Source of the DNA: Terrabacter sp. Ter38
Lineage (GTDB): Bacteria > Actinomycetota > Actinomycetes > Actinomycetales > Dermatophilaceae
DNA length: 64,000 nt
Direction of reading: 5' to 3'
NCBI RefSeq assembly: GCF_024519435.1
Contig: NZ_JALJRZ010000005.1
Location: forward strand, 186,001-250,000
A program made the translations under genes and the position numbers. The notes under the pieces are model-generated. The model was not told where the DNA came from, made no database searches, and saw nothing but the letters and a program-made list of their open reading frames with translations. Positions 9,801 to 14,727 of this stretch are shown piece after piece (position 1 is the first letter of the stretch; each line of letters starts with the position of its first letter).

Positions 9801-10105
9801 ACGACGGCAGCCTGCCGATCGTCGGCGTCAACACCTTCCGCAACCCGCACGAGGGCGAGGTGCCCCGCACGGTCGTGCTCGCCCGCGGTACCGAGGAGGA
9901 GAAGCAGAGCCAGCTCTCGCGCGTGCGCGCCTTCCGGACGGCCCACGAGGTCGAGGCGACGGCAGCGCTCGAGGAGCTCAAGGCCGTCGCCATCGAGGGC
10001 GGCAACGTCTTCGACGTCCTCATGCGGGCGGCGCGGGTGTGCTCGCTCCAGCAGGTGACCGAGGCCTTCTTCGAGGTCGGCGGCCAGTACCGCCGCAACG
10101 TCTGA
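6836..10105 (+). CDS. icmF: fused isobutyryl-CoA mutase IcmF (B12-dependent)
   Basis: This 1089-residue protein fuses three units. An N-terminal B12-binding domain has DGHDAS near residues 26-31, with His28 as the cobalt ligand. A MeaI-type GTPase chaperone has a P-loop GITGTGGSGKSSLTDEL near 201 and NKFE near 343. A C-terminal TIM-barrel mutase spans about 540-1089. IcmF interconverts isobutyryl-CoA and n-butyryl-CoA with adenosylcobalamin. FTAGVFPFKRE and KEDQGQNTCIF resemble classical IcmF rather than the pivalyl-CoA form, by recollection of those families. The length is normal. The start at 6836 fits a leaderless promoter. Control by the divergent MarR is inferred. A BtuF-like protein follows 94 bases downstream. 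Confidence 0.95.
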   Translation: MSDAAKRDHHQPSHHVRLVTASSLFDGHDASINIMRRIMQTQGAEVIHLGHNRSVQEVVDAAIEEDVQGVAVSSYQGGHVEYFEYLVKLLEENGAGHIRVVGGGGGVIVPEEIARLRESGVTIFSPEDGQRLGLAGMINTVVADCDFDPWELGAPALEAVLAGERAAVARAITGAQEGDIDDAMLSGIREAAGRRRVPVLGITGTGGSGKSSLTDELIRRLRLDQQDKLRVAVLAVDPTRSRGGGALLGDRIRMSSLDGDRVFFRSLATRGGSQVPTHLDDVLAVVRAAGFDLVILETPGIGQGDAAVIDYADVSLYVMTPEFGASSQLEKIDMLDRADVVAINKFERRGAEDALRDVGRQMVRNREAFGKSPADMPVYGTSAATFNDDGVTALYQELRALLSEQGMPVEEGVLPRVATRQSTRIATIVPASRVRYLAEISDTVRGYHEATERYAAAAARAQRLESVRGELAAAAAADDLDSAESAVDAVEALLDRARTDVPTDVASALEDWPSVVESYSGDEQVVTIRGKEIRNTLTRESLSGNKIPRVSLPRYRDHGELVSFLRRENLPGYYPFTAGVFPFKREGEDPARMFAGEGDPFRTNRRFKLVSEGQPATRLSTAFDSVTLYGRDPDPRPDVYGKVGTSGVSVATLDDMKALYDGFDLVSPTTSVSMTINGPAPTILAFFLNTAIDQQVDAFRAREGREPGDVEREELTAYALANVRGTVQADILKEDQGQNTCIFSTEFSLKMMADIQEWFIERKVRNFYSVSISGYHIAEAGANPISQLAFTLANGFTYVESYLARGMAVDDFAPNLSFFFSNGMDPEYSVLGRVARRIWAVAMKEKYGAGERSQKLKYHVQTSGRSLHAQEMDFNDIRTTLQALIAIYDNANSLHTNAFDEAVTTPSEESVRRALAIQLIINREWGLAMNENPLQGSFVIDELTDLVEAAVLKEFDRITERGGVLGAMETGYQRGRIQDESMLYEHRKHDGSLPIVGVNTFRNPHEGEVPRTVVLARGTEEEKQSQLSRVRAFRTAHEVEATAALEELKAVAIEGGNVFDVLMRAARVCSLQQVTEAFFEVGGQYRRNV

Positions 10106-10119
10106 CCCACCCGGCAACC

Positions 10120-10197
10120 GTCGAAAGGCCACGAATGGCCCCTTCTCACCCGTCGAAAGGCCACGAACGGCCCCTCGCCGACCTTCGACAGGTCACG
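10120..10197. repeat. short direct repeats before the BtuF-like gene
   Basis: GTCGAAAGGCCACGAA occurs at 10120-10135 and again at 10152-10167, and a degenerate third copy (CTTCGACAGGTCACG) ends at 10197. The same motif in inverted orientation occurs after the next gene, at 11002-11089. No protein-coding role is likely. Confidence 0.75.
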
Positions 10198-10199
10198 TC

Positions 10200-10964
10200 T
10201 TGCCCGCAGTGACTCTCGCTGACGACCTGGCGTATGCCGTGTCCCTCCCGCGAGCGCCCCGCCGGGTCGTGTCCCTGGTGCCGTCGATCACCGAGGCGCT
10301 GGCGACGACGTGCCCGGAGCGGCTCGTCGGTGCCACCGACTGGTGCACCCACCCGGAAGGTCTTGCGGTGCAACGGGTCCGGGGCACGAAGAACCCCGAC
10401 CTCAAGGCGATCGCAACCCTGGCGCCCGACCTCGTCGTGGCCAACAAGGAGGAGAACCGCGAGCTCGACGTCCGGCGACTGCGGGCTGACGGCATACCCG
10501 TCTGGGTCACCGACATCGAGACGGTGCCGGGGGCGCTCGACTCGCTCGAGCGACTCTTCGTCGAGGTGCTCGAGGTCGGCACGCCCGACTGGCTCGTCTC
10601 CGCACGGCGCGAGTGGGACGGGCCCGTGACCGAGCCCACCGTCGACGTGGCCGTGGCGATCTGGCGCGACCCCTGGATGGCCGTGGGGCGCGACACCTTC
10701 ACCGGTGACCTCGTGTCGCGGCTCGGCTGGCGCAACGTCCTCGCCGACGACGCGGACCGCTATCCGCACGTCGCGGTGGCCGACCTCGACCGTGAGGGCG
10801 TGACGGTCCTGCTGCCGGACGAGCCCTACGTCTTCTCGGCGACCGACGGCCCGGAGGCCTTCACGCAGGCCCGCACGGCTCTCGTCAGCGGACGGCTGCT
10901 CACGTGGTACGGCCCGAGCCTCGTCGGTGCCAAGGCGGCCCTGACCACGGCCGTCAACGCCTGA
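10200..10964 (+). CDS. BtuF-like helical-backbone ligand-binding protein, no signal peptide
   Basis: The 254-residue protein has the periplasmic-binding-protein-like helical-backbone fold used by BtuF and iron-siderophore receptors. PRRVVSLVPSITEALATT and TKNPDLKAIATLAPDLVVAN are diagnostic, and a conserved VGATDWCTHPE follows. There is no signal peptide or lipobox, so it is probably cytoplasmic, unlike a transporter receptor. I list the TTG at 10200; a GTG at 10209 is an alternative and neither has a strong ribosome binding site. Its place after the B12 enzyme IcmF suggests corrinoid binding or trafficking, but no ABC permease genes are nearby and this remains inference. Confidence 0.75.
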   Translation: MPAVTLADDLAYAVSLPRAPRRVVSLVPSITEALATTCPERLVGATDWCTHPEGLAVQRVRGTKNPDLKAIATLAPDLVVANKEENRELDVRRLRADGIPVWVTDIETVPGALDSLERLFVEVLEVGTPDWLVSARREWDGPVTEPTVDVAVAIWRDPWMAVGRDTFTGDLVSRLGWRNVLADDADRYPHVAVADLDREGVTVLLPDEPYVFSATDGPEAFTQARTALVSGRLLTWYGPSLVGAKAALTTAVNA

Positions 10965-11001
10965 GCCTCGGGCGCCCACTGGCCTCTCACGGGTTTGGAC
11001 C

Positions 11002-11089
11002 CGGCCGAACGTGGCCTCTCGACGGTTCGAACTCGGCCGAACGTGGCCTCTCGACGGTTCGGCCGCCGCTTCACAGTCGAGAGGCCACG
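11002..11089. repeat. 28-base direct repeats plus inverted copy, likely terminator
   Basis: A 28-base unit containing CGTGGCCTCTCGAC is present at 11002-11029 and 11034-11061. The inverted copy GTCGAGAGGCCACG at 11076-11089 can pair with 11042-11055 in a perfect 14-base-pair stem with a 20-base loop. The element lies between convergent genes, so a bidirectional terminator is likely. The core matches the repeats at 10120-10197, so the BtuF-like gene is flanked by a dispersed repeat family. Confidence 0.7.
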
Positions 11090-11095
11090 CAGGGC

Positions 11096-12343
11096 TCAGT
11101 CGTCGGCGACGACGAGCAGCCCGGCGAGCATGAGCCGCCGCGCGAGGTCGAGACCGACCATGTCGGCACGCAGCACCCCGCCCGCCACGAGCGCGACGAA
11201 GGTCCCGACCTCGTGCGGCTCGACCGCGAAGTCGGCGAGCCGGCTGCGCAGCATCGCCGGACCAAGACCCGTGGGAACGAGACGGGGGGCCACGTGCGGC
11301 CGGAGGTGGAGCAGCGTGTCGTCGCGCAGCGCCTCGGCGGCGGCCACCTGAGCCAGGGGGCCGATGGGTGCGGGTCGCTGGGCGCCGCGCGCCCGCGCCT
11401 CGAGCGCGTCGACGATGGTGGCCGTGTCGATCTCGCCGAGAGCCCGCACGAGTGCGGTTCGCACGAGCTCGACGTCCGGGGCGATGGCCTCGTGGTCGAA
11501 GCCCGTCGGTGCGACGTCGAGCGAGGCGCGCACCCTCTCGTCACGGCTGATGTCGGCGAGCGCGATCGACACGAGCTCGTCGGCCACGTGACGTCGCGTC
11601 CAGACGTGGATGCCCAGGGTGAGGTGTGTGCTGACCCCGCCGAGCGCGGTCGCGGCGTGCACCCAGCCGCGCGGTAGGTAGAGCACGTCCCCCGGGCGGA
11701 GCGTGAACTCGTGGTCGGGTGCCCGCCGTCCCGCGTCCTCGACCTCAGCGCGGTGGTCGGTCCAAGGCTCGTCGCGCAGCGGTGAGTCGTGCACGGGCGG
11801 CCGGACGCGCCAGCGCTTCTCGCCGCCCATCTGGAGCACGAAGACGTCGTGGACGTCGTAGTGGTCGCTGAAGCCGGTGTTCTGGCTGGGGGTGACGTAC
11901 GCGTTGGCCTGGACCGGGTGCCCCAGCTCCTCCGCGAGCTGCTGCGTGAAGTCGATGAGCGGACCCCACGTGCGGTGCAGTCCCTGCAGGACGATGGTGG
12001 CGCCGTCGGCGACGAGCCCGAGCAGCTTGTCGTCGCTCACCTGGTCGGCGACGGAGGCACCGACACCCCCGCCCTGGGTGAACTCCCGGTCCCCGAGGGT
12101 GCGGCCGCCCTTGGCGACCCGCAGGAAGGGGGCGCGCAGCCCGCGTCGGGAGACGAGCTCGTCGACGGAGTCCTCGCCGAAGAGGTCGAGCAGCCCGGCC
12201 GGCAGGTCGGCTGCCCGGGTGATGATCGGCGTGTGCGCCCAGTGGTCCCTGGCGAACTCGTCTGCGGGGAAGGGGACGAGACGAGCGAGCGCCGAGCGCC
12301 CACGTTCGTGCGTGGGCACCCGGCTCGTCGTGCCAGCGGTCAT
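11096..12343 (-). CDS. JmjC/cupin Fe(II)/2-oxoglutarate oxygenase, ROX-like
   Basis: The 415-residue protein resembles the ribosomal-oxygenase (YcfD/NO66/MINA) branch of JmjC cupins. The iron triad is visible as His161 and Asp163 in SDHYDVHDVFVLQMGG and His229 in LYLPRGWVHAATALGG. FSDHYDVHDVF and the GDVLYLPRG turn are family signatures. A C-terminal winged-helix-like region of about 150 residues follows, as in ROX proteins. Known members hydroxylate arginine or histidine side chains of proteins. Its ATG overlaps the stop of the upstream repeat-peptide gene in an ATGA, so the two are translated together. That coupling suggests the peptide as substrate; a ribosomal protein substrate is the alternative. 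Confidence 0.9.
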   Translation of the reverse strand: MTAGTTSRVPTHERGRSALARLVPFPADEFARDHWAHTPIITRAADLPAGLLDLFGEDSVDELVSRRGLRAPFLRVAKGGRTLGDREFTQGGGVGASVADQVSDDKLLGLVADGATIVLQGLHRTWGPLIDFTQQLAEELGHPVQANAYVTPSQNTGFSDHYDVHDVFVLQMGGEKRWRVRPPVHDSPLRDEPWTDHRAEVEDAGRRAPDHEFTLRPGDVLYLPRGWVHAATALGGVSTHLTLGIHVWTRRHVADELVSIALADISRDERVRASLDVAPTGFDHEAIAPDVELVRTALVRALGEIDTATIVDALEARARGAQRPAPIGPLAQVAAAEALRDDTLLHLRPHVAPRLVPTGLGPAMLRSRLADFAVEPHEVGTFVALVAGGVLRADMVGLDLARRLMLAGLLVVADD

Positions 12344-12615
12344 CAGATCGAGCTGGTCGGGTCCGCTCCGGCCCCACCGTCGGCGCCGCCGTCGTGGCTG
12401 CTCGTGTCGGCTCCGCCGTCAGCGGGGCCCTCGGTGTCGGCGCCACCGTCGGCGCCGCTGTCGTGGCTGCTCGTGTCGGCTCCGCCGTCAGCGGGGCCTT
12501 CCGTGTCGGCGCCACCGTCGGCGCCGCCGTCGTGGCTGCTCGTGTCGGCTCCGCCGTCAGCGGGGCCCTCGGTCGTCGGGTCGTCGCTCACGGGGTCCAG
12601 CGGGTTGTCGCTCAT
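12343..12615 (-). CDS. acidic three-repeat peptide coupled to the JmjC oxygenase
   Basis: The 90-residue product starts at ATG 12615 with GGAGGAG six bases upstream. After a 14-residue leader (MSDNPLDPVSDDPT) come three tandem 23-residue repeats at 15-37, 38-60 and 61-83, then GADPTSSI. Each repeat reads TEGPADGG, ADTSSHDG and GADGGAD in order; the copies differ only at one Gly to Ser (residue 53) and the last residue. The protein has no Lys, Arg, Cys or aromatic residues, and exactly one His per repeat (28, 51, 74), always as SSHD. The stop overlaps the oxygenase start. It is not a known family to me; a modified-peptide precursor or dedicated oxygenase substrate is a reasonable hypothesis. 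Confidence 0.8.
   Translation of the reverse strand: MSDNPLDPVSDDPTTEGPADGGADTSSHDGGADGGADTEGPADGGADTSSHDSGADGGADTEGPADGGADTSSHDGGADGGAGADPTSSI
12367..12573. repeat. 69-base tandem repeat, three copies
   Basis: Three consecutive 69-base units encode the 23-residue repeats of the acidic peptide. The word GTCGTGGCTG recurs at 12391, 12460 and 12529, exactly 69 bases apart. The units are nearly identical at DNA level including wobble positions, which points to recent duplication or gene conversion. Confidence 0.92.
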
Positions 12616-12727
12616 GGCTTCTCCTCCACGGGGTGTGGCGCGGCGCCGGACGACGCCGTCGCCTGTGCACCTACCCGCTCCCGACCCGTCTGGCACAGAC
12701 CCTCCGTCCCGTGGTCTGATCGTCGAC

Positions 12728-12928
12728 ATGGCGATATCCACGGGTGACACCGTCCACTGGAACACCTCCCAGGGCCGTACGACCGGGAAGGCCGTCGAGA
12801 AGCGCGTCGTGGAGTTCACCTTCGAGGGCCAGACCTTCAGGGCGTCGAAGGACGAGCCGTACTGGATCGTCGAGTCGAGCAAGACCGGCGCCAGGGCCGC
12901 CCACAAGGAGTCCTCGCTCGAGGGCTGA
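12728..12928 (+). CDS. DUF2945 (hypervirulence-associated TUDOR-domain) protein
   Basis: The 66-residue protein starts MAISTGDTVHWNTSQGRTTG and contains FRASKDEPYWIVESSKTGA and the terminal HKESSLEG. This is the small SH3/Tudor-like DUF2945 family, known from fungi and bacteria and of unknown biochemical role. The ATG at 12728 has no obvious ribosome binding site. It is divergent from the repeat-peptide gene and ends 12 bases before a convergent gene. Confidence 0.8.
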   Translation: MAISTGDTVHWNTSQGRTTGKAVEKRVVEFTFEGQTFRASKDEPYWIVESSKTGARAAHKESSLEG

Positions 12929-12940
12929 CCGAGGCCACCC

Positions 12941-13762
12941 TCACGTCAGGTGGTCGAAGTCGCCCCGCGTCCAGGCCGCATGGCGGTCGGCGGACCGGCG
13001 CAACATGGCCTTGGCCCCTGAGGGCACGACGGTGCCGAAGTTGTTGTAGAGGCGGTCGAAGTGCAGTCCCTCCAGCTGGCCGGCAACGCGCTGGACGACG
13101 TTGCCCGACAAGGGAATCCGGTTCGGATAACTTCGCATGAAGCTCATCGACCGACGATCTGGGTTGGGGAAGACGGCGTCGCCCGCCAGCAGCACTCCGC
13201 GTCCCTCGGCGCCTGCCGTCCACTCGACGACGGCCTGCCCGCGGAAGTGCCCGCCGACGCGGTGCAGGGTCAGTCCCGGCGCGACCTGCCGCTGCTCGTC
13301 GTAGAGCTCGACCAGCGGGTCTCGGCGCCGCACCCACTCGGCGTCGGGTGCGGCCACGAGCACCGGGACGTCGCCGAGCGCCCGGGCCCACTCCGTCTGC
13401 ACGCCGTACATGTGCGGATGGCTCGCGGCCACCGCGAGCGTAGGCCCGAGCGATCGCACGAGCTCGACGGAGGCGTCGTCGATGTAGCCGACGCAGTCGA
13501 AGAGGAGCACCCCCTCGGGCACACGCACGGCCATCGTCTGCTGCCCGATGCCGACCTCGGGCTCCGCGCGCAGCCCCCAGAGGTCGTCCTCGACGGCCTC
13601 GACGCGGATGCGCGTCCCGGCCTCCCGCAGCTGGTCCACCGTCGTCCAGCGCTGGCCCTGCTCGGGCACCCACTGTCGCTCGTCCTCGCAGACGGTGCAC
13701 GCGTCCGGAGGCCCGGTCAGGTCATCGGTCTCGACGGCGCACGTCGCACAGATCCAGATCAC
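12941..13762 (-). CDS. metallo-beta-lactamase-fold protein with N-terminal zinc ribbon
   Basis: The 273-residue protein opens with a probable zinc ribbon (WICATCAVE and DACTVCEDERQWVP, four cysteines). A metallo-beta-lactamase fold follows. The canonical HxHxDH metal motif is reduced to ASHPHMYG, lacking the Asp-His half, while the later LLAGDAVFPNPD is retained. The fold is clear, but a full dinuclear centre is doubtful. I chose the GTG at 13762 because WICATC lies directly after it; a GTG at 13795 is also open. A hydrolase role is possible, and a binding or redox role is the alternative. Confidence 0.75.
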   Translation of the reverse strand: MIWICATCAVETDDLTGPPDACTVCEDERQWVPEQGQRWTTVDQLREAGTRIRVEAVEDDLWGLRAEPEVGIGQQTMAVRVPEGVLLFDCVGYIDDASVELVRSLGPTLAVAASHPHMYGVQTEWARALGDVPVLVAAPDAEWVRRRDPLVELYDEQRQVAPGLTLHRVGGHFRGQAVVEWTAGAEGRGVLLAGDAVFPNPDRRSMSFMRSYPNRIPLSGNVVQRVAGQLEGLHFDRLYNNFGTVVPSGAKAMLRRSADRHAAWTRGDFDHLT

Positions 13763-13821
13763 GGCCCCAGCCTGCCCGTCCCGCGCGGGCCGCACCAGCG
13801 GGTTTGCGGGAGGATGCAGGG

Positions 13822-14727
13822 GTGATCCTGCACCTGCGCGCCGCCGTCGAGCAGCTGTATGCCGCCCCGCCCGCTCGCTTCACCCCGCTGCGTTCCGAGC
13901 TGGTGGCCGAGGCGAGGTCCGCGGGCGAGAAGGACCTCGCCGCCTCGGTGGGGGCCCTGCGCAAGCCGACCCTCGCCGCCTGGGCGGTGAACCACTTCGT
14001 GCGCGAGCACGCGGGCGAGCTCGAGGAGCTCCGGTCGTTCGCCGAGCTGCTCCGTGAGGCCCAGCGCACCCTCGACGCCGACCAGCTGCGGCTGCTCGGC
14101 CGGGAGCGCGCCACCCGCGTCGACGCCCTGGCCGACCGCATCGCCGAGGTCGCGGCCGAGGACGGCCAGAAGCTCGGCGCCGGTGCGGCCCAGGAGGTGC
14201 GCGAGACGCTGACCGCGCTCATCGCCGACGAGGACGCCGAGGCCTCGGTCCTCACCGGCGCGCTCGTCAAGGCACTCAGCTACTCCGGTTTCGGCTCGGT
14301 CGACGTGGCCGACGTCGTCGCTGTCACGGACCCCCGGGACCTCGGCTCCTCGGAGCCCGACCGCGCCCGACCGTCGCTCTCGGTCCTGCCCGGCGGGGGA
14401 GGGGGAGACCCCGTCGACCTCGAGGAGCGACGACGGGGCCGGCGCGCCGCCGAGCGGGCGCGGCTCCAGTCGGCGCTCGAGTCCGCACGGGCCGACCTCC
14501 GGGCCGCCGACCGAAAGGTGGCAGTCCTCACGGCCCGCCAGGAGGAGGTCATCGAGGGCATCGCTGACCTCGAGCGGCGGCTCGCGACGGCGAGGTCCCG
14601 GCTCGAGAAGGTCACGGGTGAGCTCGACGAGGCGGGCGGCATACGCCATCGACGTGAGGAGGAGGAGGCGACGGCCCAGCGGGCGCTGGACGCCCACGAC
14701 GCGCACGACGCGCACGACGGAGAGTGA
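13822..14727 (+). CDS. uncharacterised alanine-rich coiled-coil protein
   Basis: The 301-residue product starts at GTG 13822, and a GGGAGG lies shortly upstream. Residues 1-130 are helical and include RKPTLAAWAVNHFVREHAGE. A proline/glycine linker SVLPGGGGGDPVD follows near 200. The last 100 residues form a long heptad-rich coiled coil ending in a short AHDAHDAHD repeat. No catalytic motif is visible. It has no signal peptide. I assign no function; similar coiled-coil proteins are common in actinobacteria. Confidence 0.7.
   Translation: MILHLRAAVEQLYAAPPARFTPLRSELVAEARSAGEKDLAASVGALRKPTLAAWAVNHFVREHAGELEELRSFAELLREAQRTLDADQLRLLGRERATRVDALADRIAEVAAEDGQKLGAGAAQEVRETLTALIADEDAEASVLTGALVKALSYSGFGSVDVADVVAVTDPRDLGSSEPDRARPSLSVLPGGGGGDPVDLEERRRGRRAAERARLQSALESARADLRAADRKVAVLTARQEEVIEGIADLERRLATARSRLEKVTGELDEAGGIRHRREEEEATAQRALDAHDAHDAHDGE

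Follow-up and report, generated by a model that had tools for sequence, protein, structure and literature searches.

In the genome of Terrabacter sp. Ter38, the stop codon of a gene for an acidic repeat peptide of 90 amino acids (aa) overlaps the start codon of a gene for a JmjC-type Fe(II)/2-oxoglutarate oxygenase, which raises the question of whether the peptide is a substrate of the enzyme and, if so, which of its residues would be hydroxylated. The pair lies in a stretch of 64,000 nucleotides (contig NZ_JALJRZ010000005.1 of assembly GCF_024519435.1, positions 186,001 to 250,000), hereafter called the window, in which the peptide gene occupies positions 12343..12615 and the oxygenase gene positions 11096..12343, both on the minus strand. 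In this paper, we report that the oxygenase and the repeat peptide form a conserved gene pair across Actinomycetota, which is overlapping in the Terrabacter group. From the conserved adjacency, found at 76 of 80 loci and in 21 of 23 genomes from deeper branches, we infer a precursor role for the peptide gene, and we propose, with a probability of roughly 0.6, that the pair is a unit for multi-site peptide hydroxylation resembling the systems for ribosomally synthesized and post-translationally modified peptides (RiPPs), consisting of two genes here and of three in most relatives, and probably making beta-hydroxyaspartate.

Conservation of the gene pair across Actinomycetota

A JmjC gene was found in 47 of the 98 genomes searched, among them that of Ter38 and each of the eight other Terrabacter genomes. 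When named genomes were scanned, 356 relatives were obtained; the best 80 were taken as loci, and a locus was scored as paired when an open reading frame (ORF) with at least four DGGA-type motifs ended in the interval from -450 to +80 relative to the JmjC start. Such a DGGA-type peptide is encoded upstream of JmjC at 76 of the 80 loci, while none of 15,577 control ORF tails passes the same test; these tails were taken from the same flanks on both strands, apart from those on the plus strand that lay within 900 bases of the JmjC start. Three of the four misses (L049, L061 and L102) have less than 60 bases of upstream sequence, at contig ends, and the fourth is an Arsenicicoccus locus (L111). 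Here, and likewise at L121, the corresponding position encodes an acidic peptide that has no repeats, and the two peptides have the common end DDPEL-x-GADL...GPT-x-EPGA. Among 12 additional loci, which include L121, a repeat peptide was found at L185, L187, L189, L190, L191 and L192, and L186 was not classifiable. The repeat unit is often 23 residues long, as in EGPADGGADTSSHDGGADGGADT of Terrabacter, EGPADGGAAGTPGVHDGGADGGA of Streptomyces, EGPADGGAEGTPGVQDGGADGGA of Nocardioides and EGPADGGSNPEGHDGGADGTA of another Actinomycetes family, and what stays constant in the peptides is Asp, usually separated by Gly, Ala, Ser or Thr.

The pairing extends into the other classes of the phylum. In a phylum sample of 396 genomes, including that of Ter38, 53 encode a JmjC protein at E 1e-40 or better, and loci were obtained for the 30 best matches. 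The resulting deep test set has 37 rows from 24 genomes, 13 of the rows being longer fetches of genomes already present, and L161, which is of the DGGA type, was not counted as deep. An Asp-rich small ORF lies upstream in 33 of the 37 deep rows, compared with four of 3,520 controls (two of the four being one ORF counted twice). Counted per distinct deep genome, the small ORF is present in 21 of 23, among them L164, which was flagged on the wrong ORF and whose own repeat peptide is visible by eye; the two misses are L143, at a contig end, and L140, where the repeat is of another kind, SADGTDQGVEGGTYGPRDA. The preliminary description of this locus, made from the sequence of the window alone, had named the pairing in related genomes beforehand as the test of its proposal, and the pairing has turned out to be both conserved and specific.

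The deep-branch peptides start with L-x-D/E-x-D-I (e.g. LSDEDIETV), followed mostly by DGDASDADA- or TDGDATDGTDGDA-like repeats. This leader motif occurs in all 22 deep leaders listed, one of which begins with GTG, and in 17 of 2,569 control 25-mers; the count of 22 is a description only, because the expression was written from those leaders. Two of four later deep-type peptides (L189 and L190) also carry it. In addition, the MALDDDDITTSGGGGEGPADGGSNPEGHDGGADGTA family bridges both types, as it combines the leader with DGGS/DGGA repeats. The deep branches and one group of Actinomycetes have a clear recognition leader, which Terrabacter does not. One genome (G014) encodes both a JmjC protein without a peptide (L184) and a deep-type JmjC protein with a DGTDGDSTDGTDGDSHDSDG repeat peptide (L192), and so contains two enzyme lineages.

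The peptide gene and the oxygenase in the window

As had been reported in the preliminary description, the TGA stop codon of the peptide gene (12345-12343) and the ATG of the oxygenase gene (12343-12341) overlap, having base 12343 in common. The putative precursor gene, which is supported by the ORF list, by codon selection and by the pairing controls, contains a tandem unit of 69 nucleotides (nt) in 3.0 copies with 94% matches, as determined by Tandem Repeats Finder, giving three 23-residue units in the ORF translation, namely unit 1, TEGPADGGADTSSHDGGADGGAD (12505..12573), unit 2, TEGPADGGADTSSHDSGADGGAD (12436..12504), and unit 3, TEGPADGGADTSSHDGGADGGAG (12367..12435), all on the minus strand. 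The three near-identical repeats described earlier therefore stand in number and length, but the end of the third is degenerate (GAGADPTSSI). Similarly, a short leader-like segment of 14 residues, MSDNPLDPVSDDPT (12574..12615, minus strand), does precede the repeats, but it is without the L-x-D/E-x-D-I motif of the deeper relatives. The peptide contains 19 Asp, 21 Gly, 13 Ala and 3 His, one in each unit, Ser, Thr and Pro being the other main residues, and it has no Lys, Arg, Phe, Trp, Tyr or Cys, in line with the earlier account of a peptide with a single His per repeat and with no basic, aromatic or Cys residues. Within the Terrabacter group, the repeat number, which the same description had singled out for comparison, is variable. 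Terrabacter tumescens (L041) and T. aerolatus (L047) have two units, the window peptide and several others have three, and Terrabacter sp. Root181 (L039), the sequence of which includes a masked stretch, has at least five.

Comparison of close relatives indicates that the peptide gene is under purifying selection. Between the window and L037, the proportion of differences per synonymous site (pS) is 0.107 and that per non-synonymous site (pN) is 0.005 (seven synonymous changes and one non-synonymous change), and between L040 and L044 the corresponding values are 0.42 and 0.11; pN is below pS in all 15 pairs of six same-length peptide genes. A chance ORF in high-GC DNA can be ruled out, because synonymous change per site exceeds non-synonymous change between close relatives and because of the results for the control ORF tails. 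The peptide matches no family in Pfam (E up to 1) or NCBIfam (E up to 10), nothing else in its own genome at E < 0.05 (next best 0.056), and no plasmid sequence at 1e-4, where low-complexity filtering may hide some matches. Furthermore, an Rfam scan of 10000-14000 matched no RNA element, and the 85-nt leader RNA folds no better than its shuffles.

The oxygenase, of 415 aa, matches the Pfam family JmjC_2 (PF08007) with 96.3 bits against a cut-off of 22. Its predicted iron ligands in the HxD...H arrangement are His161, Asp163 and His229 (codons at 11861..11863, 11855..11857 and 11657..11659, minus strand), and Lys176 (11816..11818, minus strand) is aligned with the NO66 lysine in GRKLW, which makes it the 2-oxoglutarate site by homology. 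These four residues are invariant in two alignments of 23 and 61 sequences, the window included, so the iron triad is intact, as claimed earlier. In a profile search of solved structures, the nearest are NO66 (E ~1e-29) and MINA53 (3e-24), and an L16 arginine hydroxylase follows at 6e-7. A C-terminal winged-helix domain is a feature of the ribosomal oxygenases; the C-terminal profile of the Terrabacter enzyme gave nothing significant against the PDB, the best match being a UPF0502 protein (E 0.4). There is one JmjC_2 gene in the Ter38 genome. The oxygenase had no match in phages, and PADLOC found no defence-system match for the oxygenase, the peptide and one ferredoxin. In the T. aerolatus locus (L047, 8001-9240), the JmjC frame is in two pieces that meet near residues 112-117, while the upstream peptide frame is open; the split may reflect either a pseudogene or a sequencing error.

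The target residue and alternative explanations

On comparative grounds, we consider the peptide a probable substrate of the oxygenase. As for the residue to be modified, Asp is present in every peptide examined, and is the one candidate residue common to them all; that it would be the main hydroxylation site has, in our judgement, about an even chance. The preliminary description had made His the defining target, which does not fit the family as a whole. His is absent from 14 of the 76 DGGA-type peptides (those longer than 130 aa being scored on their last 130 residues only) and from 19 of 26 deep-type peptides. Of the 75 labelled rows of the JmjC tree, 55 have His before DGGADGG, 10 have Gln there and no His, and 10 have neither; this state has changed at least 14 times on what is a quick tree. 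In six peptides, four from Nocardioides, one from Microlunatus and one from Aeromicrobium (L070, L077, L080, L090, L062 and L072), Gln replaces His in all three repeats. Across the His, Gln and neither classes, Asn147, Tyr149, Lys176, His161, Asp163 and His229 remain the same, and a change of Ser238 to Thr in some oxygenases is the sole variation with the His state among the pocket residues checked. The residues of NO66 that correspond to Asn147, Tyr149 and Ser238 contact the substrate His.

These data bear directly on the possibility that the oxygenase hydroxylates the His of SSHD (or GHD, GVHD), giving one hydroxyhistidine per repeat, with the Asp context serving for recognition only. The predominance of His before DGGADGG would be expected on this account, as would the return of HD in the deep peptides L191 and L192, and the nearest solved homologues, NO66 and MINA53, are His hydroxylases with the substrate His in Gly-rich stretches; nevertheless, we regard it as unlikely, since so many peptides have no His, Gln takes its place throughout in six of them, and the state has changed repeatedly without any pocket change other than that at Ser238. 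Still less likely, in our view, is that the enzyme acts as a ribosomal oxygenase on uL2, uL15 or uL16, with the acidic peptide as an unmodified partner, i.e. a regulator, an iron-delivery factor or a charge-mimicking inhibitor. Membership of JmjC_2, with NO66, MINA53 and RoxA as the nearest characterised proteins, and translation of the peptide just ahead of the enzyme in an overlapping frame would be compatible with such a role, yet the repeat architecture and the varying repeat number seem better suited to a multi-site substrate, fewer than half of the genomes searched (47 of 98, including that of Ter38) have the gene, and outgroup JmjC_2 genes stand in RiPP-like contexts, often behind small ORFs. 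The peptide might also act by itself as a metal-binding or phase-forming polyanion, for instance a Ca, Mn or Fe buffer, in which case hydroxylation would be incidental and the ferredoxin and the oxygenase would be iron-related neighbours. An Asp every few residues, the lack of Cys in all 76 DGGA-type and all 26 deep-type peptides, and the failure to find any exporter or protease family that accompanies the pair agree with this idea, which we hold to be very improbable in view of the strict adjacency to a single oxygenase family and of a scan of upstream regions with DtxR and Zur consensus sequences that gave no excess over shuffles.

A number of observations also weigh against our own proposal of an Asp-hydroxylating, RiPP-like unit. 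The leader motif is found in just one of 62 DGGA-type leaders tested, is missing from the window peptide, and is not seen in two of the four later deep-type peptides (L191 and L192). No such peptide was found at four of the 12 additional loci, namely L184 and L188, of the same GTDB family, and the paralogues L193 and L194. The C-terminal part of the oxygenase, where a leader-binding domain might lie, has no significant profile match in the PDB. No exporter or protease family travels with the pair among the widespread gene clusters, unlike in most RiPP clusters. The third gene of most relatives is not beside the Terrabacter pair, and the one PF06999 protein encoded in the genome, a 37% paralogue, lies on a different contig. 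Finally, HD recurs in many repeats, including those of L191 and L192, and because of this and of the His specificity of NO66 and MINA53, His is kept as a possible site.

The proposed hydroxylation system

According to our proposal, the oxygenase would use Fe(II), O2 and 2-oxoglutarate to hydroxylate side chains at many sites in the repeats. The main reaction would most likely take place at the beta carbon of Asp, yielding beta-hydroxyaspartate, and the neighbouring His may be an additional or lineage-specific site. In the deep branches, the L-x-D/E-x-D-I leader probably docks the oxygenase, and in Terrabacter and Streptomyces the repeat itself may be what the oxygenase binds. Where present, the Suc_Fer-like ferredoxin could serve as an electron donor or maintain the iron in its ferrous state. 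The modified peptide would be a soluble polyanion that may chelate metal ions; because no widely conserved exporter or protease accompanies the pair, it is perhaps intracellular and perhaps metal-binding. A more far-reaching picture, which we put forward only tentatively and consider doubtful, is that of ribosomal poly-hydroxyaspartate peptides throughout the phylum, in which JmjC_2, with the help of a thioredoxin-like ferredoxin, would hydroxylate Asp after Asp of a tandem-repeat peptide to give a genetically encoded, intracellular iron- or calcium-binding polyanion and not an exported antibiotic.

If the peptide is indeed the substrate, the pair would represent a RiPP-like class that reaches across several classes of Actinomycetota, from the deep branches to Streptomyces, Nocardioides and Terrabacter, and that is easily overlooked, given the low complexity of the peptide and the lack of a matching family model for the members scanned. 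Bacterial JmjC_2 proteins, which are labelled plain 'cupin' in most plasmid records seen, would thereby gain a further kind of substrate, and the pair, with its many natural repeat variants, would be a simple model for the hydroxylation of Asp or His at multiple sites.

Relation to known systems

The JmjC_2 ribosomal oxygenases NO66, MINA53 and RoxA/YcfD have the same domain (PF08007), iron triad and 2-oxoglutarate lysine as the Terrabacter enzyme. These proteins modify His or Arg of ribosomal proteins (Arg according to a PDB molecule name), whereas the Terrabacter gene adjoins a gene for an Asp-rich repeat peptide. FIH, which is a JmjC enzyme too, hydroxylates the beta carbon of Asn, Asp and His residues of ankyrin repeats, but its similarity is only remote at the profile level (E 0.008-0.15) and its substrates are eukaryotic. 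For NO66 and MINA53, the substrate His of ribosomal proteins is described as lying within Gly-rich stretches, GGGNHQH and AGGLHHH (PMC8667043).

JmjC-type oxygenases acting on ribosomally made precursors have been described as well. BpmG and BipG of biphenomycin biosynthesis, together with the related PbsQ, are reported to act on a RiPP precursor, in which they hydroxylate ornithine (PMC12257519, PMC12707348); the putative activity in Terrabacter would be of the same general kind. On the other hand, BpmG and BipG are described there as acting on one ornithine, in multi-enzyme clusters with a TldD-type protease, while at the Terrabacter locus a single oxygenase stands beside a peptide with many repeats, without a cluster of that kind. 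Bregman et al. 2025 have reported domains like the RiPP recognition element fused to PF08007 in fish and algae, the closest bacterial homologues of which (~30% identity) stand in RiPP-like contexts (PMC12710340); the available part of that paper names no peptide, repeat or operon like the Terrabacter pair. Among open-licence PMC papers, a coverage outside which most subscription papers fall, no description of the repeat peptide or of the pair was found.

JmjC_2 proteins of Streptomyces plasmids, with 27-37% identity, served as an outgroup, and 11 loci of the 51 plasmid records matched were looked at. Seven of these (L170, L172, L195, L196, L197, L201 and L202) have an upstream mini-ORF ending in DGGGTG-x-x-DGND, with an aldo/keto reductase gene next in three and other genes in four. 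The Asp-Gly-Gly core is common to these mini-ORFs and the Terrabacter peptide, but the plasmid version is a single short core without tandem repeats, and perhaps belongs to a separate single-core RiPP-like system. Of the other plasmid loci, that of S. clavuligerus has an Asp-Pro-rich mini-ORF with SLEPDEIEVI, one is located by a YcaO gene and has a Cys-bearing mini-ORF, one has a mini-ORF without Asp repeats, and one has none; one locus is beside a carbamoyltransferase gene. Asp is favoured as the target residue by these outgroup loci as well. At two non-actinobacterial plasmid loci, from Pseudanabaena (near LanM) and Rhizobium (near a radical SAM gene), no annotated Asp-rich small ORF was found upstream; the Rhizobium locus has a 77-aa ORF that is not Asp-rich.

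Neighbouring genes and regulation

Neighbouring ORFs of 70 aa or more within 6.5 kb were clustered for the 80 loci, and the 40 largest clusters were considered. One further widespread family was found, a protein encoded directly downstream of JmjC at 54 of the 80 loci, with a similar protein at 16 of 20 deep loci; both of the two such proteins scanned contain the Suc_Fer-like ferredoxin domain PF06999. Two of the 26 loci without it (L086 and L108) end within 250 bases of JmjC. The gene is absent beside the pair in the Terrabacter-Intrasporangium-Humibacillus and the Knoellia-Janibacter groups, and its presence has changed at least five times on the quick JmjC tree. No other cluster among the 40 occurs at more than 17 of the 80 loci and, antisense shadows aside, none among the 15 considered for the deep loci occurs at more than four of 20. 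In line with the earlier statement that no transporter or protease is adjacent, the Suc_Fer-like ferredoxin is the only family found to be widespread beside the pair; the absence of an exporter or protease concerns wide conservation only, because lineage-limited clusters were not named one by one.

As to regulation, iron- or zinc-box control was rejected, since the upstream regions showed no excess of the DtxR and Zur consensus sequences over shuffles. The SigB-like pattern GGGTA[CTG] is enriched upstream (21 of 60 regions, with a shuffle mean of 5.5); a SigB-like promoter is not proposed, the two-part pattern being present in one of the 60 upstream regions only.

Several other features were observed around the pair. 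A divergent small ORF of 66 aa (MAISTGDTVHW..., 12728-12928, plus strand) matches the Pfam family Hva1_TUDOR (PF11160) with 70.4 bits against 24.1. The ORF at 12941-13795 (minus strand) has a weak, sub-threshold metallo-beta-lactamase match, and its start, with Cys pairs, is rubredoxin- or zinc-ribbon-like by eye. In addition, tandem 32-nt units (TGGCCTCTCGACGGTTCGAACTCGGCCGAACG and a related reverse form) lie in intergenic DNA at 10980-11075 and 10115-10210. The core of these units, GAACGTGGCCTCTCGACGG, occurs 33 times in the genome with at most one mismatch (control 0), several of the copies being at 32-nt spacing, and the units constitute a genome-wide interspersed repeat family.

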